The notes under the pieces are model-generated. The model was not told the origin of the DNA, did no database searches, and saw only the letters and a list, made by a program, of their open reading frames with translations. From Fidelibacterota bacterium (lineage in GTDB: Bacteria; Fidelibacterota; UBA8477), in contig JAIPJR010000072.1 in the NCBI GenBank assembly GCA_021734045.1, positions 1 to 12,143 on the forward strand: 12,143 nt of DNA, written 5' to 3'. Below are positions 3 through 12,143 of this stretch, piece after piece. A program made the position numbers and the translations under genes. Within the stretch, counting starts at the first letter, position 1, and every line of letters begins with the position of its first letter.

Positions 3-239
3 CAGGATCAAAAATTAGAAGTCACCAAAGAGGATGTGGAGGCGCGTCTGGACGAATTGACTCAGCCTTATGGTGACCAGGCGGAGCAGATGAAAGCACT
101 GTATCGCAAAAAAGAGTACCTGCGCGATATTCGGGAGGAAATTCTGGAGAACAAAGTATTTGATGAGCTGCTGAAAAATGCCAAGGTGAAGGAAAAAACG
201 GTGAGTACAGATAAGTTGGGAGGTAAACATGCCCATTAA
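3..239 (+). CDS. tig: Trigger factor, C-terminal end (partial at left edge)
   Basis: The frame is open from base 3 to the TAA at 237-239, giving about 78 residues of a protein whose start lies outside the window. The visible part is charged and helical ([14 protein letters not shown], then [22 protein letters not shown] and a short Lys-rich tail), the pattern of the end of the trigger-factor C-terminal chaperone domain. Trigger factor is the ribosome-bound chaperone that receives nascent chains; its ribosome-binding and prolyl-isomerase domains would be upstream and are not seen. Position directly before clpP and clpX is the common bacterial tig-clpP-clpX order and is the strongest support. 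The last 11 bases overlap clpP, suggesting translational coupling. A GTG at 36 lies in frame but is internal, not a start. Confidence 0.85.
218..223 (+). promoter_or_regulatory. Shine-Dalgarno site of clpP inside tig
   Basis: GGGAGG lies 5 bases before the clpP ATG at 229 and is still within the tig reading frame. A strong canonical site supports this start and indicates that the ribosomes use anti-SD pairing, which is uncommon in Bacteroidota proper. Confidence 0.75.
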
Positions 240-822
240 TCAATTGGTTCCCATGGTGGTGGAGCAGACGGGCCGGTCGGAGCGCGCATTTGATATTTAC
301 AGCCGGTTATTGAAAGAGCGCATCATTTTTTTGAGCACTCCCATTGACGACAATATTGCCAGCCTGGTTATTGCTCAGTTGCTGTTTTTGGAGGCGGAGG
401 ATCCTAAGAAAGACATTTTTCTGTATATCAATTCACCGGGTGGTGTGGTGACTTCCGGTTTAGCCATTCTGGACACCATGCGTTATGTGAAGCCGGATGT
501 GTGTACAACCGTGATTGGTCAGGCTGCCAGTATGGGTGCGTTACTCCTGGCCGGAGGTACGAAGGGGAAACGCGCCGCCCTGCCGCATGCCCGGGTTATG
601 ATTCATCAGCCGTTGGGTGGTGCGGAAGGTCAGGCCTCCGATATTCAGATCGCGGCCACGGAAATTATCAAGACGAAAAAGCTGTTGAACCAACTGCTGG
701 CGGAGCTCACCGGGCAGAAAATTTCAAAAATTGAAAAAGACACGGACCGCAATTTCTTTATGTCGGCTGAAGAAGCGGTCAAATATGGTCTGGTTGACAA
801 AGTATTGGATGAACGGGGTTAG
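229..822 (+). CDS. clpP: ATP-dependent Clp protease proteolytic subunit ClpP
   Basis: A 197-residue serine peptidase of family S14, the usual length with almost no propeptide. ClpP forms a double heptamer in the cytoplasm that degrades proteins unfolded and fed in by ClpX or ClpA/C. The catalytic triad can be read: Ser101 in AASMGA, His126 in MIHQPLGG, and Asp171 in EKDTDRNFF, with the NSPGG oxyanion segment at about 68-72 and the C-terminal AVKYGLVD motif at about 183-190. Start: ATG at 229 with GGGAGG 5 bases upstream. It overlaps the tig end by 11 bases and is followed after 2 bases by clpX, so the three are very probably cotranscribed. Nothing is missing or odd; it appears to be an active enzyme. 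Identification is from family motifs. Confidence 0.98.
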
Positions 823-824
823 CA

Positions 825-2063
825 TTGGCTGACAAACGCACTCTCAAATGTTCGTTCTGTGGTCGTCCGCAGAAAGATGTAGATGTCCTAATTTCCAGCC
901 CGACCGGCACGCATATATGTGAAGCGTGTGTACGCAATGCGGCGGATCTATTAAGTCACGATCACTCTCGCGGGGAATGGCAGCGGTTTACCCTGGAGAA
1001 TATGCCGCGTCCGCATGAGATTAAGGGATTTCTGGACCAATATGTAATCGGCCAGGAGCGTGCCAAACGGGCGGTATCAGTGGCGGTTTACAACCATTAC
1101 AAGCGTATTCAGGCGACGGAAGATCTGGACGGTGTGGAACTGGAGAAGAGCAATATTCTGTTAATCGGTCCCACCGGTACGGGGAAGACGCTGCTGGCTC
1201 GGTCATTGGCTAAGATGCTGAAGGTTCCGTTCGCCATTGCCGATGCCACCGTGCTAACGGAAGCGGGATATGTGGGTGAGGATGTGGAAAATATCCTGGT
1301 TCGCCTGCTCCAGTCTGCTGATTACGATGTGCCTGCTACGGAGCGGGGGATTATTTATATCGACGAGATTGATAAAATTTCGCGCAAGGACGGTAATCCT
1401 TCCATCACCCGCGATGTGTCCGGTGAAGGGGTTCAGCAGGCATTACTGAAAATTTTGGAAGGAACAGTGGCCCAGGTTCCACCCAAGGGTGGCCGGAAGC
1501 ATCCGGAGCAACCCTTGGTCAGTATTAATACCAAAAATATTTTATTCATTCTGGGGGGTGCGTTCGAAGGCATTCAGCCCATTATCGCCCGGCGCTTGAA
1601 AAAAACAGTCATGGGATTCGATGGCAGCTCTGAAGAGATGGTAGGAATTGATGATAAGAATCTGGTAAAGATGGTCCAACCACAGGATTTGCTGGCCTTC
1701 GGGTTAATTCCGGAGCTGGTAGGTCGCATTCCGGTTTTTGCTCACCTGGAGGAACTCACACCGGAGGCATTGCGCCAGATTTTGTTGGAGCCTAAAAATG
1801 CTCTTATCAAGCAGTATAAAAAATTATTTGAGCTGGAAGGGGTAACCCTGGAATTTGACGATGCGGCAATTGATGCCATTATCGAAAAGACCCAGGAGGC
1901 GCAAACAGGTGCCCGGGCATTGCGGGCGACGCTGGAGTCCATCATGATGGATATTATGTACGAGTTGCCGGCCCAGGAGAATGTGAGTCGCTGTATCATT
2001 ACCCGTTCGGTTGTAACCGGCGAGGCCCGCCCAACCATAAAATATCGCAAGTCCACCGCTTAG
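825..2063 (+). CDS. clpX: ATP-dependent Clp protease ATP-binding subunit ClpX
   Basis: A 412-residue AAA+ unfoldase, full length for the family, that recognises tagged substrates and threads them into ClpP. The N-terminal zinc-binding domain shows Cys9, Cys12, Cys32 and Cys35. The AAA+ module has Walker A GPTGTGKT (115-122), the pore-loop GYVG (148-151), Walker B IIYIDE (176-181), the RKH pore-entrance loop (224-226), the arginine-finger segment GRIP (Arg301) and sensor-2 GARALR (Arg364). The ClpP-docking loop reads MGF (263-265) where Escherichia coli has IGF, a conservative change. The only start giving the intact zinc domain is TTG at 825, 2 bases after the clpP stop and 6 bases after a weak GGGG (815-818), so it probably relies on coupling to clpP translation. 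Confidence 0.98.
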
Positions 2064-2129
2064 CTGCAGGTGTGACGGTTAATACAAGCCAACTTAACAA
2101 TCGAGCGGTATTTAACCCTTGGGATTTAG

Positions 2130-2152
2130 CCAGTCTTGACGAATTTGACTGG
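2130..2152 (+). repeat. Short inverted repeat downstream of clpX
   Basis: CCAGTC (2130-2135) and GACTGG (2147-2152) are perfect 6-bp complements around an 11-base loop. AACCC (2114-2118) and GGGTT (2151-2155) could form a competing or extended outer pairing. No run of T follows, so it is not a standard rho-independent terminator. It could be an mRNA 3'-end hairpin or an operator, or be chance. Confidence 0.3.
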
Positions 2153-2222
2153 GTTACATTCAATTAATATAAGCAATTACCTTTTGGCTAAAGTCTTTAA
2201 ATTCAAAGAAGATAATTGTGGG

Positions 2223-2266
2223 TTTACCGGACTTAGAATCCAAACCGAGCGTATGAATTTACCGGA
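2223..2266 (+). repeat. 9-bp direct repeat upstream of the receptor promoter
   Basis: TTTACCGGA occurs at 2223-2231 and again at 2258-2266, with start points 35 bases apart, and the second copy ends 42 bases before the -35 box of the receptor promoter. Direct repeats upstream of a promoter can be activator sites. No regulator gene is visible in the window, and two 9-mers may be coincidental. Confidence 0.3.
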
Positions 2267-2307
2267 TTTCCATGAAAAACCCCCATCGTAATAATTTTGA
2301 AATTTCC

Positions 2308-2336
2308 TTGACACCCAAATCGGGATTCTCTAAAAT
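2308..2336 (+). promoter_or_regulatory. Sigma-70-type promoter of the receptor operon
   Basis: TTGACA at 2308-2313 is a perfect consensus -35 box. TAAAAT at 2331-2336 matches the -10 consensus at five of six bases, and the spacer is the optimal 17 bases. Transcription would begin near 2342-2345, leaving a leader of about 35 bases before the ATG at 2378. The TTTG-type Bacteroidota promoter is not needed to explain it. It is the only strong promoter seen before the four-gene cluster. Confidence 0.75.
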
Positions 2337-2364
2337 CCTTAGCAATACCAAAACCAATGATGCT

Positions 2365-2369
2365 GGAGG
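2365..2369 (+). promoter_or_regulatory. Shine-Dalgarno site deciding the receptor start
   Basis: GGAGG lies 8 bases before the ATG at 2378. An in-frame ATG at 2357 would place this site inside the coding sequence and lies only about 15 bases from the predicted transcription start. The 2378 start also yields a clean signal peptide beginning MYRRRIS, so it is preferred. Confidence 0.75.
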
Positions 2370-2377
2370 CTTTGTCT

Positions 2378-5300
2378 ATGTATAGGCGACGTATTTCAAT
2401 CATAATTTCAACGACCATTCTTGTTTTCAGCCTTTTACCGGCCCTGGTGTTTGCGGGCACAACCGGAAAGATTATGGGGCGGGTGACGGATGCCACGACG
2501 GGTGAGCCGTTAATCGGTGTCAATGTTGTCATTGAAGGTGAGAACATGGGCGCCGCATCTGGCGAGAATGGAGAGTACTTCATCATCAATGTCCCTGTTG
2601 GCATTTATACGCTGCAGGCGCAATACATTGGCTACCAGAAGGTGTCGGTGCAGGAAGTGCGTGTGAACGCAGATCTCACCACCCAGGTGGACATTGAATT
2701 AACATCCACCGTGCTGGAGCTGGGCGAGTCCGTGATTGTGGAGGCGAAGCGCCCCATGGTTCAAAAGGACCTTACCTCCAGCCGCCGGACTATGAGCGCA
2801 GATGATATCCAGGATATGCCGGTATCCTCTGTGGAGGGTGCGGTGAATTTGACGGCCGGAGCAGTAAGTTCCGGCGGATTGCACCTCCGCGGTGGTCGCG
2901 CATCGGAAGTGGTGTACCTGTTTGATGGTATCGCCCTGAATGACCCGTTGACGGGTAACCCCAATGACACTGACATCCCTATGATGGCCATCGATGAGAC
3001 CAATGTGATTTCCGGTGGTTTTGGTGCGGAATATGGTAGTGCACAATCGGGTGTGATCAATGTTGTAGCAGCCGAAGGTGGCCGCGGCTATTCGGGAAAA
3101 TTGCGCTATACAACTTCCAATGGTGTTGCCAATGCTTTTTCCGGTGAGGATCCCCACGACCGGCAGTCGTTTGAATTCAGTGTTGGTGGCCCGCTTTTAT
3201 CGCAGAAGCTGAGCTTTTTTGCCTCCGGTGAGGTCGGCGAGAACTATGGCCGCCTACCGAATCAGTACAGTGGACTGCAGAACTACACTGGCAAGTTGAC
3301 TTACCGGGTGAGTGACGCTTTAAAATTCAATCTCAGTGGACTGTATTCCAATGCCAATGAGCAGTGGGGCTATTCCCACACCTGGAGTAAAACCATCAGC
3401 GAGGACCGACTTCGGTCTTACATGCCCCGTTATTTGGAGCATTATGACGGTATGGACGATCCCTTCATGCGGGATGGTATTCTCAAAGACAGCGAAATTC
3501 CGGACTGGTTTGTTACCAATGTCATGGGGAACCCCGGTGCGGTTGGTCAAACCTATACAGACCCGGTTTCTGGTGAAGAAGTTGAAGTGGGACCGCTGGA
3601 TTGGTGGTATGGTAATGGTCAGTTAGATACTGAAGATCTTAATTATAATGGTATTCTGGATGATGGTGAGGATTTGAACGGTAATGGCATCCTTGATTCT
3701 GAAGATGCAGACCGGAATAAGTCTCTGACCTCGTACAGTGTTTGGGATCGCCTACCCTGGGTTAAGCGCACCAGTTACCTTCTGACCGGTGGATTTACCC
3801 ACACGCTGTCTCCCAAAACCTATTATGAAATCCGGGTTGCTACCTTCAGTACCGCCTTGAAGGACAATACCATCGAGCAGATTAATGAAGACCGGAACTA
3901 CAATGGCGTTCTGGATGCTGGTGAAGATCTGAACGGGAATGGCGTCCTGGATGCTTATGATGCCGATAATCAGGTTTGGGGCTTTGATGATCCCAACGAT
4001 ATGTTCCATGATGACAACAACAATGACTATGTGGACGAATCGGAGCGTGACTGGAATGGTGATGGCGTTATTGATGACGTTGATAAGGCCAATTGGATCC
4101 ATTGGGTTGATTTTCCGGTGGATGAAGGGTTCACGTATTACAGGAATTTTTACGGTGTTGGTCCTCATAATCCTTACACCTATTACCGGGATCACTGGCA
4201 TGAAGACCGGAAGGTTACCAATACGGTAAAGGGTGATTTAACCAGCCAGTACAATGTGAACCATAAGGTGAACCTTGGTTTTGAGTACAAGGGCTATGAC
4301 TTGTATTACCATGATACACCGGACCGTTATGGCTATGCGGAAAAGTACCAGGTTTATCCCTGGGAAATGGCTTTATATGCCAATGACAAAATGGAATTTC
4401 CCGGTATCATCGTGAATCTGGGTTTGCGCTGGGAGTGGTTTGATCCCAAGCAGCCGCATCCTGGTGATGCCACTGACCCGACCTGGACATCGGATGACTT
4501 CGATGATTGGGATGGTGATGGTACACCCGAGTATTACAATGCGGCGCTGTCCTCCAGTTATGTCCATACGCTGCGTGAATTGAAGGACCCGCGTGATGCC
4601 AAAACTACCACACGGTTTGCACCGCGTTTGGGTGTCTCTTACCCCATCACGGACCGGGATATGCTGTATTTCAACTACGGCCGCTATTATCAGCGCCCAC
4701 GGTTGGATTATCTTTTCCGGAACATCACCTATAATATGGGTGGCGGATTCCCCATCGTGGGTGATCCTAACCTGAGTCCGGAGTTGACTACCTCATATGA
4801 AATCGGTGTGCGGCATCAGTTCCCGGCGGAGGTGATGATTGAAGCCAAGGGTTTTTATAAGGACATTTTCGGCCTCACCGATACACGCCCCATTTACTGG
4901 ACGGTTTCGGATTGGTACACCACCTATTTCAATGCTGACTACGGTCGCGTTCGCGGTCTGGAGCTATCGCTCGTGAAGCGCCCGCCCTCCTGGTATTACG
5001 GTGAGATTAATTACACCTACTCCATTGCCAAGGGTAAGGCTTCGGCCGTATCCCAAGGGTATCTTACCGAATGGTCCGGTGGTATTGTGCCGACCTTTGA
5101 GTCGTTTCTGGATTGGGATCAGGCGCATACTTTTTCCGGGAATCTGAACTTCCGGTATCAGGGTTTTCTCACCAGTTTTGTGATTACCGCTGGTAGCGGA
5201 ACGCGATACACAAAACCTGGCCAGGGTCGCTTGGTCGTGGAAAATACCGAGACTTTACCGCCCACTTCACGCAGTGACCTGCGGATGAGTTACACCCAGA

Positions 5301-5587
5301 AAGTTGGTCCGGCTGACGCCACCCTTTTCATGTTGGTTACCAATCTGTTTAACCGCACCAATATCTTAGGTGTATCGGATATCGAATGGTACGACGCCTA
5401 TAAGACGATTAACGAGCGCTATGAGAATGGTGAGCTTACGGAAGCTGAATATCTGGACCAGGTTGATTCTGATAATGATGGCAAAGCGGATTATAACAAA
5501 ACCCATCCTGAGATGGGATCGGATCTGGATCCGTCAGTGTACGGCGACAAGCGTCGTTTCCAAATCGGAATATCGTTAGCCTTCTAA
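2378..5587 (+). CDS. TonB-dependent outer-membrane receptor with carboxypeptidase-regulatory-like domain
   Basis: A 1069-residue exported protein from the ATG at 2378. Residues 1-26 are a Sec signal peptide (basic MYRRR, hydrophobic core, cleavage after VFA). Residues about 30-115 form a carboxypeptidase-regulatory-like beta-sandwich (GRVTDATTGEPLIGVNV, then GEYFIINVPVG). A TonB plug follows at about 120-235, with LHLRGGRASEVVYLFDGI near 168-185 and GFGAEYGSAQSGVINVV closing it. The rest is a 22-strand-type barrel ending in Phe (RFQIGISLAF), as the BAM complex expects. Such receptors take up ligands across the outer membrane using TonB energy; the substrate cannot be read here. The size recalls SusC, but no SusD gene follows. 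Odd feature: several EF-hand-like acidic loops lie within barrel loops (about residues 417-575, 706-722 and 1030-1040). It probably heads the downstream operon. Confidence 0.9.
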   Translation: MYRRRISIIISTTILVFSLLPALVFAGTTGKIMGRVTDATTGEPLIGVNVVIEGENMGAASGENGEYFIINVPVGIYTLQAQYIGYQKVSVQEVRVNADLTTQVDIELTSTVLELGESVIVEAKRPMVQKDLTSSRRTMSADDIQDMPVSSVEGAVNLTAGAVSSGGLHLRGGRASEVVYLFDGIALNDPLTGNPNDTDIPMMAIDETNVISGGFGAEYGSAQSGVINVVAAEGGRGYSGKLRYTTSNGVANAFSGEDPHDRQSFEFSVGGPLLSQKLSFFASGEVGENYGRLPNQYSGLQNYTGKLTYRVSDALKFNLSGLYSNANEQWGYSHTWSKTISEDRLRSYMPRYLEHYDGMDDPFMRDGILKDSEIPDWFVTNVMGNPGAVGQTYTDPVSGEEVEVGPLDWWYGNGQLDTEDLNYNGILDDGEDLNGNGILDSEDADRNKSLTSYSVWDRLPWVKRTSYLLTGGFTHTLSPKTYYEIRVATFSTALKDNTIEQINEDRNYNGVLDAGEDLNGNGVLDAYDADNQVWGFDDPNDMFHDDNNNDYVDESERDWNGDGVIDDVDKANWIHWVDFPVDEGFTYYRNFYGVGPHNPYTYYRDHWHEDRKVTNTVKGDLTSQYNVNHKVNLGFEYKGYDLYYHDTPDRYGYAEKYQVYPWEMALYANDKMEFPGIIVNLGLRWEWFDPKQPHPGDATDPTWTSDDFDDWDGDGTPEYYNAALSSSYVHTLRELKDPRDAKTTTRFAPRLGVSYPITDRDMLYFNYGRYYQRPRLDYLFRNITYNMGGGFPIVGDPNLSPELTTSYEIGVRHQFPAEVMIEAKGFYKDIFGLTDTRPIYWTVSDWYTTYFNADYGRVRGLELSLVKRPPSWYYGEINYTYSIAKGKASAVSQGYLTEWSGGIVPTFESFLDWDQAHTFSGNLNFRYQGFLTSFVITAGSGTRYTKPGQGRLVVENTETLPPTSRSDLRMSYTQKVGPADATLFMLVTNLFNRTNILGVSDIEWYDAYKTINERYENGELTEAEYLDQVDSDNDGKADYNKTHPEMGSDLDPSVYGDKRRFQIGISLAF
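3635..4098 (+). repeat. Tandem EF-hand-like 12-residue units inside the receptor
   Basis: Four 36-base units encode the pattern D-x-N-x-N-G-x-L-D-x-x-E/D: 3635-3670 (DLNYNGILDDGE), 3671-3706 (DLNGNGILDSED), 3890-3925 (DRNYNGVLDAGE) and 3926-3961 (DLNGNGVLDAYD). Acidic residues or Asn at positions 1, 3, 5 and 9 with Gly at 6 and mostly Glu at 12 match the calcium loop of EF-hand and dockerin folds. A looser third block (3986-4098) includes HDDNNNDYVDE and DWNGDGVIDD. The copies differ at many synonymous sites, so they are not recent duplications. Calcium binding is inferred. Confidence 0.7.
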
Positions 5588-5609: not shown

Positions 5610-7925
5610 ATGAAGCGGACATTGTTACACAGAATCACAGGCATATTCGGCGTTCTGGCGATTCTGATTGTTGTTGATAGCGTTTTCGCCCGCAACATGA
5701 ATTCTTATGAGAGTGACCTCTTTGGTCTGGCCAAACCATCGGCGCGGCCTGAGAAGGCATTCTATATCATGTCTACGGGAAATCTTTGGACAGGATTGAC
5801 GAACTATGGGAGTGTAGGAGATCCTAATTTCTCAGCAACCGGCAGGCCCTCTATGATGTGGCCGGGCGGCTCGGATAATAATTACCTCTATGATGGTGGT
5901 ATCTGGGTCGGGACCGAGCTGGGTGGTGAACCCGTGGTGACTACCTACTTCTACAATCCGGACGTGGAGTACAAACCCACCACCGGTTTCCCCGGTGAGG
6001 TGGGAACCACGGTGAATGGCGCTAAAGCCAAATCGCTGGAAGATAGTTACATGGTCTTTGACGATGTGGACGAGCGCTCTGAAAGTAATCACGTGCCCAT
6101 TGGTGTGCGCATCAATCAACGCGGAATGACCTGGAGCCTGCCTGATTTCGATGATATGGTGGCATTTGAATATGAAATCTTCAATACCGGATTAAACGGT
6201 GACCTGACCGATGTGTACATTGGATTTTGGTATGATGTGGACGTGGCCTCCATTGATGCTACCAATCTTGCTATTGACGATCTGGTGGACTACGATGGTT
6301 GGGACCAGTCTGATTCCGATACAGATATCTATGACAATGTTGATCCTTACGATCTGGATGGTGACGGATTCACAGGGTATGACGAATATGGCGTCCCTTA
6401 TTACAGAGACGCCGGCCAGAACCCAAATTACGATCCCAGCAAAGTCCAGGGAGATGGATTTTTCGATGAGTGGGGCATTGTTTTTGACGCTGACGCCCCT
6501 GTTTTGAAATGGCAGGTCGATGTGCCCAGTCTGGGCCGTGTGGCCGGCGCACCAGCTGTTGTGGATGGTGATACGCTGAGGGGCTATCAATTCCCCCGGA
6601 GCCTTTCCTACATCTATGATGGTGATGACCCGGTGTCATCCAGTAATGATTATGGTGAACGGGAGATGAGCCCCATCGTAGACGGATTTTTTGGTGGTAT
6701 GTTGCTGGCGACGGATGCACCCTGGCAGAATGTGGAAGGGCGCGATTTCAAGATCGGCTATTCACATCAGTGGTGGAACTGGGAGTCGGACCCCAAAACC
6801 GATAAAGACCGCTGGGATTATATGCAAGGACAGCATGTCTCTAGTCAGGGAAAGAAATTCCTGAACAATCCTCTTGAGCTGGGATTTCCCCAATTTGACT
6901 ATCGGTTTTTACTCACAACCGGCCCCTTCGATTTGCCAGAAGGTCAGTCGATAAAGCTGGTCTTTGTAACCGTTATCGGTCGCGGGCTGGAAGGAATACG
7001 CGCCAACGCTGACAATGCGGTGAGAGCTTATTATTCTGGTAGTGAGAACAGTAATCCATATGCCCAGAGCAACTGGGATGAAGATAATCACTGGGTGCTT
7101 CCAATTCCTCCCAGTGTCCCGGCACTTTCCTATTCTCCCGTGGATGGTGGTGTGAAACTAGCCTGGGACACCAGCGCAGAGACGACCCCCGATCCGAACC
7201 TGGGCAGGGAAGATTTTGAAGGATACCAACTATACCGGGCTGCATATGCGCCTCAGAATTGGGAATTAATCGCTTCATTTGATAATCGTAGTAATGACCC
7301 GATTTGGGTTGTGACTAACGCAGGAGATACGCTGGGTGACGCACCGGTTGATCTGCCGGATATTCAGCAGACCTTCACCGATTATGGTGGCACAACCCCA
7401 TGGGGAACGACGGTTGATCCGCCGGTCAACAGTATTCCTTATTACTACGCCCTGTCGGCATACGATCCGGTGAAGACCGCTGCCGAAGCAGGGCAGGACT
7501 TGCCACGCGCCTATTCACCGTTAAGCAATTACAAAAAGACGCTCAGTGGTGCACCGGTACCCGTGTATCCTTCGCGGCTATACGAAACCGGGCAGGCTAT
7601 TCCAACCCTGGATGATGTGCAGGTCGTTCCCAATCCTTACCTGGGAACCGCAGCCTGGGAGGCGTTGTATGAAGATCGCCTGAAATTTGCCGGATTACCT
7701 CCGGTGGCTAAAATTACCATCTATTCTCTGGTCGGAGACCGCATTATCACGATAGACCATACGAATGGTACAGATTACGAATTCTGGGATCTGGTGTCCC
7801 GGAACAATCAATCTGTTGTGAGCGGGCTCTACATTTATGTGGTGGAAGCACCTGATGTTTCCACGGTGGGAGAGACCTCCGATACCGTGGTGAAGAAGGT
7901 TGGTAAATTTGCGATTTTCCGGTAA
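5610..7925 (+). CDS. Exported protein with fibronectin-III-like region and T9SS-like C-terminal sorting domain
   Basis: A 771-residue protein I cannot name. Residues 1-27 form a Sec signal peptide ending VFA; there is no lipobox Cys, so it is not a SusD-type lipoprotein. The long N-terminal part (about 28-490) is rich in Gly, Asp and aromatics, with an EF-hand-like loop at 248-259 (DLDGDGFTGYDE). Residues about 498-640 resemble fibronectin III (VPALSYSPVDGGVKLAWD, then FEGYQLYRA). Residues 667-771 resemble a T9SS type-A sorting domain: VQVVPNPYLG, a KITIYSLVGDRI strand, then SGLYIYVVEA and a terminal VGKFAIFR. It starts 22 bases after the receptor stop, with a modest AGAGATAGG ribosome site ending 9 bases upstream. 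By analogy with CTD proteins it would cross the outer membrane and be surface-attached; a partner role to the receptor is inferred. Confidence 0.8.
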   Translation: MKRTLLHRITGIFGVLAILIVVDSVFARNMNSYESDLFGLAKPSARPEKAFYIMSTGNLWTGLTNYGSVGDPNFSATGRPSMMWPGGSDNNYLYDGGIWVGTELGGEPVVTTYFYNPDVEYKPTTGFPGEVGTTVNGAKAKSLEDSYMVFDDVDERSESNHVPIGVRINQRGMTWSLPDFDDMVAFEYEIFNTGLNGDLTDVYIGFWYDVDVASIDATNLAIDDLVDYDGWDQSDSDTDIYDNVDPYDLDGDGFTGYDEYGVPYYRDAGQNPNYDPSKVQGDGFFDEWGIVFDADAPVLKWQVDVPSLGRVAGAPAVVDGDTLRGYQFPRSLSYIYDGDDPVSSSNDYGEREMSPIVDGFFGGMLLATDAPWQNVEGRDFKIGYSHQWWNWESDPKTDKDRWDYMQGQHVSSQGKKFLNNPLELGFPQFDYRFLLTTGPFDLPEGQSIKLVFVTVIGRGLEGIRANADNAVRAYYSGSENSNPYAQSNWDEDNHWVLPIPPSVPALSYSPVDGGVKLAWDTSAETTPDPNLGREDFEGYQLYRAAYAPQNWELIASFDNRSNDPIWVVTNAGDTLGDAPVDLPDIQQTFTDYGGTTPWGTTVDPPVNSIPYYYALSAYDPVKTAAEAGQDLPRAYSPLSNYKKTLSGAPVPVYPSRLYETGQAIPTLDDVQVVPNPYLGTAAWEALYEDRLKFAGLPPVAKITIYSLVGDRIITIDHTNGTDYEFWDLVSRNNQSVVSGLYIYVVEAPDVSTVGETSDTVVKKVGKFAIFR

Positions 7926-7950
7926 TGCAAGCAGCAAGCGAGGCGATAAA

Positions 7951-8943
7951 ATGAAATTAAAAGCTATAACTTTAGCGAGCCTGTTATTCCTGACCCAATT
8001 TGGCTATGGACAGCAAATTTTTGAAAAAGTCGGCACTTCAGGCGCTCACTTTTTGGATATTTCCATGGATGCCGGAATCAAGGGAATGGGTGATGCCTAT
8101 ACTGCGCTGGTGTTGGATAACGCCGGGGCGATTCACTACAATCCTGCGACGCTGGTGTACATCCCCTCCTGGAGCGCCCACTTTGGTAATGTGGGCTGGT
8201 TCGCGGGAATCGGTTTAAACAGCGTAGCGGCCGCTTATAATCTGGGTGGTGCCGGTGCTGTAGGTGTGTATTACCGCGGACTAAACTCCGGTGACATTGA
8301 CGAAACCACACCAACCCAGCAGTTGGGTACCGGCAATGTCTATAACTGGCAAGATATGTTGCTGGGTGTGACATTTGCACGATCCTTCACCGATCGTTTT
8401 AGCGCGGGTGTTAACCTGGGGTATCTGAACGAATCGATCTCCGAGTATGATCTGAGCGCCAGTGCATGGGTGATGGATTTAGGGACATTTTACATGACCG
8501 GTTTCCAATCATTGCGACTGGGAATGACCATTCGCAATTTCGGACCCGAAATCGATTTCGAGCAGACATTTATCGATTACAACAACGGGGAAGAGGTTCT
8601 CACACCAGAGAAGTATCGACCCTTTCCCATGCCGTTAACCTTCCAAGTGGGTCTGGCCTATGACTTCCTGGAAAATACCGACAATCAGTTGTTAACGGTT
8701 TCTGTTGATGCTGTTCATCCCAATGATTCGGCGGAACGGCTTCACTTGGGATTTGATTACCGGTTTTTGAACACGATCCATGTCCGGGGTGGTGGCTATT
8801 CCAACCATAATTCTGCTTCCCTAATGGGTGGTATTGGGTTGGATCTGCAGAAAATCGGTGTCAATGGCCGGTTTGACTATTCGGTAGCCAATTATGGTTT
8901 AATTGGTTTCGTGCATCAGTTTTCAATGATTATTTCAGGATAA
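7951..8943 (+). CDS. PorV/PorQ-type outer-membrane beta-barrel protein
   Basis: A 330-residue protein from the ATG at 7951. It has a signal peptide (MKLKAITLASLLFLTQFGYG, then QQ) and the family's N-terminal signature: GTSGAHFLDI, then GIKGMGDAYTALVLDNAGAIHYNPA at about residues 31-65, followed by alternating beta-strands typical of the FadL-like PorV/PorQ barrel. In Porphyromonas, PorV carries cargo from the T9SS translocon to the attachment complex and PorQ acts with the sortase PorU. Which of these this protein matches cannot be decided by eye, hence no symbol. An in-frame TTG at 7900 would extend it into the upstream gene, but AGG at 7941-7943, 7 bases before 7951, and the clean signal peptide favour 7951. 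It follows the CTD protein by 25 bases, suggesting a cargo/shuttle relationship. Confidence 0.85.
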   Translation: MKLKAITLASLLFLTQFGYGQQIFEKVGTSGAHFLDISMDAGIKGMGDAYTALVLDNAGAIHYNPATLVYIPSWSAHFGNVGWFAGIGLNSVAAAYNLGGAGAVGVYYRGLNSGDIDETTPTQQLGTGNVYNWQDMLLGVTFARSFTDRFSAGVNLGYLNESISEYDLSASAWVMDLGTFYMTGFQSLRLGMTIRNFGPEIDFEQTFIDYNNGEEVLTPEKYRPFPMPLTFQVGLAYDFLENTDNQLLTVSVDAVHPNDSAERLHLGFDYRFLNTIHVRGGGYSNHNSASLMGGIGLDLQKIGVNGRFDYSVANYGLIGFVHQFSMIISG

Positions 8944-8956
8944 GGATGGTATCAAT

Positions 8957-11900
8957 ATGTCTCGAATATTAAAACTTATCGCACCCTTATCACTTTTTCT
9001 GACAGCGACATTCCTGTATGCGGCGGGACCGATGATTCAGTCTGCACGGTATGTGCCGGATGAGAATAAGCTGGTGCTTACGTTTGATGAGGATGTGGAT
9101 GCGGGCAGCGTCCTGTTGGGCCAATTATCCTTTGATGATGACAATGGCGGCCCCAATGCTGATCTATCATTAAGGGGTGGGTCAGTACTTACACCGGCGG
9201 GTTTATCCAGTACGCTGGAAATCAATCTGCTATATTCTACTGTGATTGATAGTTTTGTGGGTGCCTACTATGGCGATAATACTTATGTGTTCCGTCTGTG
9301 GGGCGCCAAACCTGACCAACTTATGACCCTGGAGAATATGGATGCAGACAATCTGGTTCTAACGGCCGGAGCGGGGGCATTCATTGATAATACATATGAG
9401 TCGTCCGCGATGCAGTCAGTCGCCTGTACGGTGGACGCTGTAACCGCTCAGCCGGAAATCGTTTCTGCCACATATGATGCCAATATCAATAAAATGCAGT
9501 TCGTTTTTTCCGATGTCGTCCAATTTGACCAGATCGCGGAAGATCGATCTGTAGCGGGTGGCCCCGGCAATGGATTGCTCCAGAGCCCGGTGGGTACCAA
9601 CGACCCGGGTGAAGACCGTAATGGTAACGGGGTACTGGATTTCGAGCAGAACATCAAATTTCTGCGGATCGGCTTCAGTGGAACCGGTGGATCCATGACA
9701 TTGGAGAATATCGGCAGTGTTGTACAAACTGCTGATAATGACACCATTGATATGTACGTGACGAATAACGATGCCAAGCGGCTGGAAGGCACCATTGGTT
9801 TAGATGCTAACTTGAAACTGGACATTCAGCCATGGGCTTTTGTTGATCAGAATTATAATCCCAATGCTTACAGTGACATGGGGGTTACAGCGATTGTGGA
9901 TACCGTTGATTTTGTCCCCGATTCTGCATCCTACAATCTGAGTAAGAATGAACTGAGTATCTTTTTCAACAATCTTGCTGATGCCGGGCGGTCGATTAAA
10001 ATCACCCGTCCCGCACCTGTTTATACTAAGATTGTCCTGAGTAACGGTACCGAGTCACACACCATTTCCGGTGTGGAGGGTAATCCATCAACAATCGGGG
10101 CGACGGGTTTCAAATTCAAGTTACAGATAATAGATCAGGCCAGTGTGGAAGCACTCATTAATGGCTCTTCACTCAGCCTGGCCATGGAATCTTACGCTAT
10201 ATATGATAACCTGGGTAATGGAAACGCGGACATTACCGGCATTCCTGTGGAAGTTGTGGAAACAGCGTCTGCCAATGAACAACCACCCACACTGGAAGCA
10301 GCGTCTTTTGATGAAGACACCCAAACCCTGCAACTGACCTGGTCGCTTTCCTTGGGCGTTGGTTATTACCTTGGGAACACGCTTCCCGCCATGCCGGCAG
10401 ATTGGGATGATCTGGCCAGTCAGGAGCTCACTGGTTTTGGTGCCTATGATCCGATTGCCGATTCGACCATCACATTTGGTAGCGGTAAAGTCTATTACTC
10501 CGGCAGCAAGAAGAACACCTATGTTCGTTTGGACCAGGCTGATGCCATTCGGATTCAATCCTATCCAAATTTGAGTGATCTTCATGTCATTGCTGATCGG
10601 GATGTGTTTAATGCTTTTCTATTCCTGAACGGCAATAGTGAAGCCACGGCTGAGGACAGTGTTTTTCTGAGTATTGTCCCCGACACCACAGCCCCGGTCA
10701 TCACCAATGCCAAAATGAATGTGTTTACCCAGTCCATGGAATTCGATGTGGACGAGCCGATTCAGGCTGCCGCTATCGATCCGGCAGATTTTAAGCTGGG
10801 TAATGTGACATTGGGCGGCACCGTTTCGGCAATTACTGGTGCTGCGTATGATAATCAGTTCATCCTGAATCTGGATGAAACCTCCTATAATGCCTTTATG
10901 GCACTCCCGGACAGTATTCTGGTAGCGCCGGATCTTATCTCTGCCAGCAGTGCATTAACCAACCTTGCCGGGATTGGATCTGCTGCTGCTACCATGAACG
11001 CACCAGCAGGGCGGTATTTCTACCTTTTGAGCCGCGAGGCCTTTGTGACACCAACTGCCACCCGTTTTGGCGCGCTAAAGCTCATCAGTGACCATTGCGA
11101 AATTTATGTGGATGAAGATGTGTGGGGAACCCGCATCACCATGGATGATGTCCTGAAACTTGCGGAGACATTCGAGACCAAGACGCCAATGGATAGCACC
11201 CAGGGCATTAAAGCCATTGTGGACGAGTGGTACGGTGATGTGAAGGATACGGATGGAAATGGAAAGGTCATCATCTTCCTGGCAGATGTTCTGGATGAAT
11301 ACGATCTGGGACGGAATGACACCAATTCCAGTTTCTTCGAAAATGGGTATATCACCATGGCCGATACTACTGATAGTGAATTTTCCAACCGGGGTGATAT
11401 TATCTACCTGGATGTGGATCCGCAGGTAATCGGTACACCGCCTTACACGACCTGGAATCATTCCATGCTGCATGCTCTTGCATACCAGTATACCCATATG
11501 GCAGCATTGCACAACAAGCCGGCACAGGAACCCTGGATTCGGTATGGTGTGGCATTAAAACTCCAGGAAATGGTGGTCGGAAATGTGAAATTCTTTGGCG
11601 ACGGTGCTAACACCAAGGCAACGGCAGCCAACGAGCTGACCTACATCAATGCCAGTTTGTTGAAGAGTCGTGACGATCTGTTTAATGTCTATAACTTCTT
11701 CACCTATTTGACGGAGAAGTATTCAGATCCTGACGATCCGCTGGCGGTGATTCGTGCAATCGCTGCCTCCGATGAACTGGGTGTCGCTGCAGTTGATGAG
11801 GCGATCGCTCAGTTTGATGAAAGTACCACAACAGCCGAGGCCTTTTCCAATTATGGTACTGCCTGTTTCCTGGATATGGTGCAGGACAGTACCGGGGCGG

Positions 11901-12143
11901 CTGATGATGTCGATTCGCTTTACAATGGAATTTATAGCTTTGATGCTCTGTTGTTAAATGCGCCTCCAAGTGGTAAAAATGCTGGAAATATCCCCTGGGA
12001 TAAAGCTGCCAATAATGGTGCGCCTTTCCCAAAATCGGGCATTTTCCCGTGGTCATTTAATTTCTATGTGTCCAGGGCTTACTTTCTGAACCTGGAAGGG
12101 CAGGTCATCATTGTATCGCCCGATTTACAACCGGAGGATACAT
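8957..12143 (+). CDS. Large exported Ig-repeat protein with degenerate M30-like metalloprotease domain (partial at right edge)
   Basis: I read the frame codon by codon from the ATG at 8957 to the window edge without a stop: 1062 residues, C-terminus missing. AAGGA at 8942-8946 precedes the start. A Sec signal peptide ends near residue 22-23 (FLYAAG). About five Ig-like modules (Big_5/SbsA-like, pattern 'P-x-I-x-x-A-x-y ... L-x-x-x-F-x-x-x-V') begin near residues 26, 165, 322, 443 and 579. From about 700, a domain resembles M30/hyicolysin-type peptidases: CEIYVDED (714-721), DTDGNGKV (764-771), NRGDIIYLDVDP (811-822). The expected HExxH site reads YQYTH (843-847), and the later WxNEG position reads WIRYG (860-864), so catalysis is probably lost. 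An EF-hand-like loop lies at 220-231. Whether a T9SS CTD ends the protein is unknown. It may be surface-exposed cargo of the PorV-like partner. Confidence 0.8.
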   Translation, partial: MSRILKLIAPLSLFLTATFLYAAGPMIQSARYVPDENKLVLTFDEDVDAGSVLLGQLSFDDDNGGPNADLSLRGGSVLTPAGLSSTLEINLLYSTVIDSFVGAYYGDNTYVFRLWGAKPDQLMTLENMDADNLVLTAGAGAFIDNTYESSAMQSVACTVDAVTAQPEIVSATYDANINKMQFVFSDVVQFDQIAEDRSVAGGPGNGLLQSPVGTNDPGEDRNGNGVLDFEQNIKFLRIGFSGTGGSMTLENIGSVVQTADNDTIDMYVTNNDAKRLEGTIGLDANLKLDIQPWAFVDQNYNPNAYSDMGVTAIVDTVDFVPDSASYNLSKNELSIFFNNLADAGRSIKITRPAPVYTKIVLSNGTESHTISGVEGNPSTIGATGFKFKLQIIDQASVEALINGSSLSLAMESYAIYDNLGNGNADITGIPVEVVETASANEQPPTLEAASFDEDTQTLQLTWSLSLGVGYYLGNTLPAMPADWDDLASQELTGFGAYDPIADSTITFGSGKVYYSGSKKNTYVRLDQADAIRIQSYPNLSDLHVIADRDVFNAFLFLNGNSEATAEDSVFLSIVPDTTAPVITNAKMNVFTQSMEFDVDEPIQAAAIDPADFKLGNVTLGGTVSAITGAAYDNQFILNLDETSYNAFMALPDSILVAPDLISASSALTNLAGIGSAAATMNAPAGRYFYLLSREAFVTPTATRFGALKLISDHCEIYVDEDVWGTRITMDDVLKLAETFETKTPMDSTQGIKAIVDEWYGDVKDTDGNGKVIIFLADVLDEYDLGRNDTNSSFFENGYITMADTTDSEFSNRGDIIYLDVDPQVIGTPPYTTWNHSMLHALAYQYTHMAALHNKPAQEPWIRYGVALKLQEMVVGNVKFFGDGANTKATAANELTYINASLLKSRDDLFNVYNFFTYLTEKYSDPDDPLAVIRAIAASDELGVAAVDEAIAQFDESTTTAEAFSNYGTACFLDMVQDSTGAADDVDSLYNGIYSFDALLLNAPPSGKNAGNIPWDKAANNGAPFPKSGIFPWSFNFYVSRAYFLNLEGQVIIVSPDLQPEDT

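Follow-up and report, generated by a model that had tools for sequence, protein, structure and literature searches.

Inactive metallopeptidases are already a known kind of protein, and a 2024 review devoted to them leaves family M30 unmentioned and hardly mentions bacteria (PMC11266112). A precedent among the cargo of the type IX secretion system (T9SS) is the family NF052323 of T9SS-dependent, M6-like inactivated metalloproteases, in which an exported metalloprotease has a dead active site. The C-terminal tails of T9SS cargo are bound and shuttled by barrels of the PorV family, and in a published model some of these tails, such as that of PorZ on PorQ, are left uncleaved; PorZ thus stays on PorQ, and PorU on PorV, as cargo on its cognate barrel (PMC10202324). 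A different pairing is that of the RagAB and SusCD complexes, where a TonB-dependent receptor is encoded alongside a surface partner.

Here we consider a stretch of DNA of 12,143 nucleotides, referred to as the window, which ends in a gene with an M30-like domain that lacks the zinc-binding HExxH motif. The gene is the fourth in a cassette with the following features:

2357-5587, + strand, TonB-dependent receptor with a CarbopepD_reg-like domain (PF00593, PF07715 and PF13715 above cut-off)
5610-7925, + strand, g771, a 771-aa protein without a named family, conserved with the cassette
7945-8943, + strand, PorV/PorQ-family outer-membrane barrel (NF033709, PF19572)
8957-12142, + strand, first 1062 codons of the zinc-less M30 gene, an open reading frame that runs off the contig end
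8957-9025, + strand, probable signal peptide MSRILKLIAPLSLFLTATFLYAA of the zinc-less M30 protein, putative, from a reading of the sequence
11072-11875, + strand, predicted M30 pseudopeptidase domain, residues about 706-973, from hhalign to HExxH relatives, the lugdulysin match and a canonical-only HMM

Lugdulysin, the neutral metalloprotease of Staphylococcus lugdunensis (family M30; PDB entries 7bb8 and 7bb9, the latter with E242Q and Y315F), has by profile the same domain as the window protein, with the acidic loop, the strand preceding the helix and the helix order in common. Lugdulysin has the full set of zinc and catalytic residues, whereas the window protein is without four of the five, and the window domain is, unlike lugdulysin, embedded in a predicted T9SS protein of about 1494 aa. 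The HExxH-bearing M30-like proteins of the Neomarinimicrobiota (665-1010 aa) have a homologous domain, and several of them the same C-terminal tail, but their domain lies near the N-terminus, its zinc site is present in 54 of 54 cases, and in the flanks examined their genes are never beside those for PorV, g771 or a TonB-dependent receptor.

Like PorU-PorV and PorZ-PorQ, the cassette pairs a T9SS-tailed surface protein with a PorV/PorQ-family barrel, but it has no C25 sortase domain and includes a receptor and g771. Unlike SusD/RagB of the RagAB and SusCD complexes, the putative partner of its receptor carries a dead peptidase domain and is T9SS cargo; the window showed no homologue of SusD/RagB, the cassette genes had no Pfam or NCBIfam match to SusD/RagB, and the receptor reaches 64 bits with the SusC/RagA model TIGR04056, for which the cut-off is 368, so that the cassette is not assigned to the SusCD/RagAB type. 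Membership of NF052323 was considered and rejected, as the window protein scores 22 bits, in its tail only, against a cut-off of 600 bits for what is an M6-like family. The window genome does have an NF052323 relative elsewhere (G000:C48:28737-31535; 343 bits, below the same cut-off), and such relatives occur phylum-wide.

Results

The gene and its protein

The zinc-less M30 gene continues on an overlapping contig of the same genome (G000:C8, L002), to which it is joined by 111 bp of 100% identity, and this gives the full length of about 1494 aa. The protein ends in a T9SS type A sorting / FlgD-Ig tail, with both models for the T9SS type A sorting domain above their cut-offs (TIGR04183, 43.4 bits, cut-off 23; PF18962, 33.2 bits, cut-off 27). 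We infer that the protein is exported by the T9SS to the cell surface, which is where a preliminary description of the window had placed it, and which the tail upholds as a prediction.

A public Candidatus Neomarinimicrobiota MAG (L003) has a gene that is 91% identical. Compared with the nearest relative, dN/dS is 0.05 for the M30 domain and 0.066 for the whole gene, rough figures since dS is near 1. They support retention of the domain under purifying selection, in line with the earlier reading of an open frame as a retained domain, and together with long open frames across nine families they rule out a pseudogene. The genomes are draft assemblies. In two of them (G148 and G151) the zinc-less gene is apparently split by a frame change (L111:8438-9827, L094:1420-5698), either genuine or an artefact of assembly, and in G153 (L095:584-6763) an insertion of some 580 residues in the N-terminal part brings the protein to 2060 aa.

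Homology to family M30

The region first singled out, window positions 11096-11590 on the + strand, covers residues 714-878 in the final open reading frame, starting with CEIYVDED and ending with NVK. Alone, the window protein gives nothing significant over the M30 region with Pfam or NCBIfam, the threshold of Pfam M30 (PF10460) being missed. Relatives were sought with the window domain in 245 Neomarinimicrobiota genomes and found in 72, and many of them are proteins of 665-1010 aa with HExxH and WxNEG. An HMM built from the 54 HExxH-bearing relatives only recognizes the window domain with 104.4 bits (E 7e-31), while the best of 2000 shuffles reaches 7.7 bits, and hhalign aligns the zinc-less with the zinc-bearing profile at a probability of 99.8% (E 8e-28). 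For both profiles, lugdulysin alone among PDB entries is matched with a significant E-value (E 3e-34 for the zinc-bearing and 3e-9 for the window-clade profile). PF10460 itself is above cut-off in two zinc-bearing relatives (G196:C76 and G033:C10), at the same coordinates as the domain match; matches of the HExxH-bearing proteins to the NCBIfam model MXAN_6640_HExxH are weak and below cut-off.

The domain of the window clade is thus significantly similar to M30 members, and these profile comparisons support its assignment as a gluzincin homologue of the hyicolysin/lugdulysin family, the scaffold proposed in the preliminary description. AlphaFold, run on segments of 353 and 229 aa with alignments of five rows each, gave pLDDT values of 31 and 35, and the gluzincin fold is therefore a prediction from sequence profiles. 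Viral contigs were searched for relatives of the domain and none was found. One element is common to zinc-bearing and zinc-less members alike:

11246-11266, + strand, DTDGNGK, an acidic, calcium-loop-like motif

The pattern is kept in 51 of 54 zinc-bearing and 25 of 26 zinc-less rows, and the loop may bind calcium.

Loss of the zinc site

With the register set by the printed profile alignments, three stretches of the window protein fall on the active site of lugdulysin:

11483-11497, + strand, YQYTH at the HExxH position, with Tyr843, Gln844 and His847 at lugdulysin His241, Glu242 and His245
11543-11545, + strand, Tyr863 at the position of the third zinc ligand Glu (lugdulysin Glu268, in WxNE)
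11678-11680, + strand, Leu908 at the position of the catalytic Tyr (lugdulysin Tyr315)

Two catalytic residues are indicated by the engineered entry 7bb9, and Glu268 is taken to be the third zinc ligand, as is general in gluzincins. Of the five residues of the site, the window protein retains only His847, the second zinc His, and has lost the other four. The residues named beforehand (H835, H839, Y843, Q844, Y845, T846, H847, H852 and Y863) are all in place, and the loss of the zinc site that had been read from them is borne out by Tyr843, Gln844 and Tyr863 at His241, Glu242 and Glu268; the fifth position, Leu908, was absent from that account. Where an active peptidase would have HExxH, the third-ligand Glu and the catalytic Tyr, the window protein has YQYTH, Tyr863 and Leu908. 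A canonical HExxH elsewhere in the protein would have spoken against the loss, and neither HExxH nor HE occurs among the 1062 aa that the window encodes, nor was any seen in the remainder to about 1494 aa. Among the 54 zinc-bearing rows H, E, H and E are complete in all 54, with the catalytic Tyr in 52 of the 52 that are readable; the five-residue set is complete in 0 of the 26 zinc-less rows.

Could a different metal site, or some other hydrolase chemistry, have been rebuilt on the scaffold? His835, His839, His847 and His852 lie within 18 residues of each other, and a rearranged metal site had been left open on this ground. The relatives L004, L005 and L006, however, keep one, none and none of these four; H839, H847 and H852 are confined to the closest relatives, not one of the four is conserved across the order-level clade, and in the window's order the nearest relative alone has His847, which is Met or Leu in the others. 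The third-ligand position is Tyr or Val, and the Tyr315 equivalent is Leu. Because only His847 remains and most relatives are without it, a rearranged site is unlikely, and its construction from the four His is not supported by the relatives; rebuilt chemistry of any kind we regard as exceedingly improbable. As judged from these alignments, the window domain is very likely a pseudopeptidase without a zinc site, and predicted to be inactive.

Phylogeny of the loss

Among the 245 genomes the zinc site is kept in 54 domains and lost in 26. In an unrooted tree of these 80 domains, calculated with the active-site columns left out, one branch (99/98), present in 99% of bootstraps, parts all 54 zinc-bearing from all 26 zinc-less rows. 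The window's lineage has intermediates, HEYTK, HEFTK and HEFAK (with the third-ligand Glu kept), HEYTR, QEHAR and NEFVK, and an end state of YQY with Tyr or Val at the third-ligand position. These fit an order of events in which the second His was lost early and the remaining site then decayed; since the tree has no root, this direction can only be inferred. Another zinc-less lineage (NALT, FQLA, HTLAR, NTLTR) has diverged further. The zinc-less form is kept across much of the phylum Neomarinimicrobiota.

The receptor/PorV cassette

The barrel gene of the cassette scores 161 bits with NF033709 (cut-off 90) and 29.1 with PF19572 (cut-off 27). The g771 gene has no Pfam or NCBIfam match, and its close homologues (E below 1e-150) occupy the same cassette across the phylum. 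Directly upstream of the zinc-less gene lies a PorV-family gene in 22 of the 23 loci with upstream sequence, and in 20 of these 22 the order is complete: TonB-dependent receptor, g771, PorV family, zinc-less M30. The remaining two are cut short by the contig end, and the single exception to the PorV rule is a gene fusion in G212. The full cassette spans nine family codes and both zinc-less lineages. At the 55 HExxH loci, a few of them overlapping, no TonB-dependent receptor, g771 or PorV lies within the flanks, which upstream are mostly 1-2.6 kb, so that an adjacent PorV would be visible and a more distant receptor would not. Receptor/PorV cassettes that are more distant (L128, L129) carry different genes in fourth position.

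The G212 fusion (L119:4558-9519, G212:C77) combines the zinc-less M30 domain and a g771-like region in one open reading frame of 1654 aa; neither PorV nor receptor adjoins it. In G243 one contig stops at g771 residue 73 after the zinc-less domain and another starts at residue 76, which suggests a second M30/g771 fusion.

In seven genomes from several families, clpP and/or clpX lies directly upstream of the cassette, in the window (229-5587) as well as at L107, L108, L109, L115, L121 and L122; this is an unexpectedly stable pairing of a housekeeping protease pair with an outer-membrane cassette.

A dead peptidase might also serve as regulator of an active one. The window genome (G000, 92% complete) yielded no catalytic M30 paralogue, and regulation of an active twin in the same genome is for this reason unlikely and was rejected.

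Discussion

Because the dead form is retained in much of the phylum, with the same three outer-membrane genes next to it in nearly every case, the zinc-less M30 protein probably binds rather than cuts. The explanation that we favor, and think probable on the sequence evidence, is that it is a non-catalytic, T9SS-exported binding subunit of an outer-membrane receptor complex. The M30 domain would have been kept as a binding module in a large exported surface protein, which the PorV-family barrel would most likely hold or deliver through its C-terminal tail. The protein would then stay at the surface with the barrel, over the TonB-dependent receptor and together with g771, and the former substrate cleft would capture a ligand for uptake instead of cleaving it. 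The conserved neighborhood and the fusion suggest a physical complex, and a joint surface complex of the cassette products is a likely, if putative, arrangement. That the ligand is a peptide or protein is plausible, and its capture for uptake we propose only tentatively.

Two alternatives give the protein a surface role of another kind. It may have a structural or assembly function, as scaffold for a sub-complex of PorV-dependent attachment or export, the receptor gene being merely co-transcribed, by analogy with PorZ or PorU sitting on PorQ or PorV. The immediate adjacency of the PorV-family gene in 22 of 23 loci and the type A sorting tail are in favor of this, as is the published model of tails left uncleaved on a cognate barrel of PorV type, PorZ on PorQ being an example (PMC10202324). 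Against it, conservation in the cassette extends equally to the TonB-dependent receptor and g771 (20 loci), and there are five further PorV-family genes in the genome, so that the cassette PorV is not the sole T9SS barrel; we think such a function unlikely. A surface adhesin, with the dead domain binding other cells, particles or polymers and no role in transport, would agree with the large size, the sorting tail and the lost catalysis. Adhesins usually diversify fast, however, whereas the M30 domain is under strong purifying selection, and the receptor and PorV neighborhood is constant over nine families, which makes an adhesin distinctly improbable. The preliminary description had proposed an adhesin or a receptor partner, and the cassette, with its TonB-dependent receptor and its PorV-family barrel, therefore favors the partner, as its fourth gene, over the free adhesin.

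The link of a zinc-less M30 gene to a PorV / TonB-dependent receptor / g771 cassette is new; a zinc-less M30 clade tied to such a cassette was not found in a search of open-licence literature. With zinc-bearing sisters, intermediates with a partial site and one well-supported branch, the domain is a clear bacterial case of a dead metallopeptidase, in which the path from secreted peptidase to receptor-type subunit can be traced. It is possible, though far from assured, that a phylum-wide complex exists in which a TonB-dependent transporter is served by T9SS proteins on a dedicated PorV-family barrel, the dead M30 capturing the ligand and no SusD-type lipoprotein taking part. The cassette ties type IX export, PorV-family barrels and TonB-dependent uptake together in an uncultured phylum, and it offers a concrete complex for reconstitution.
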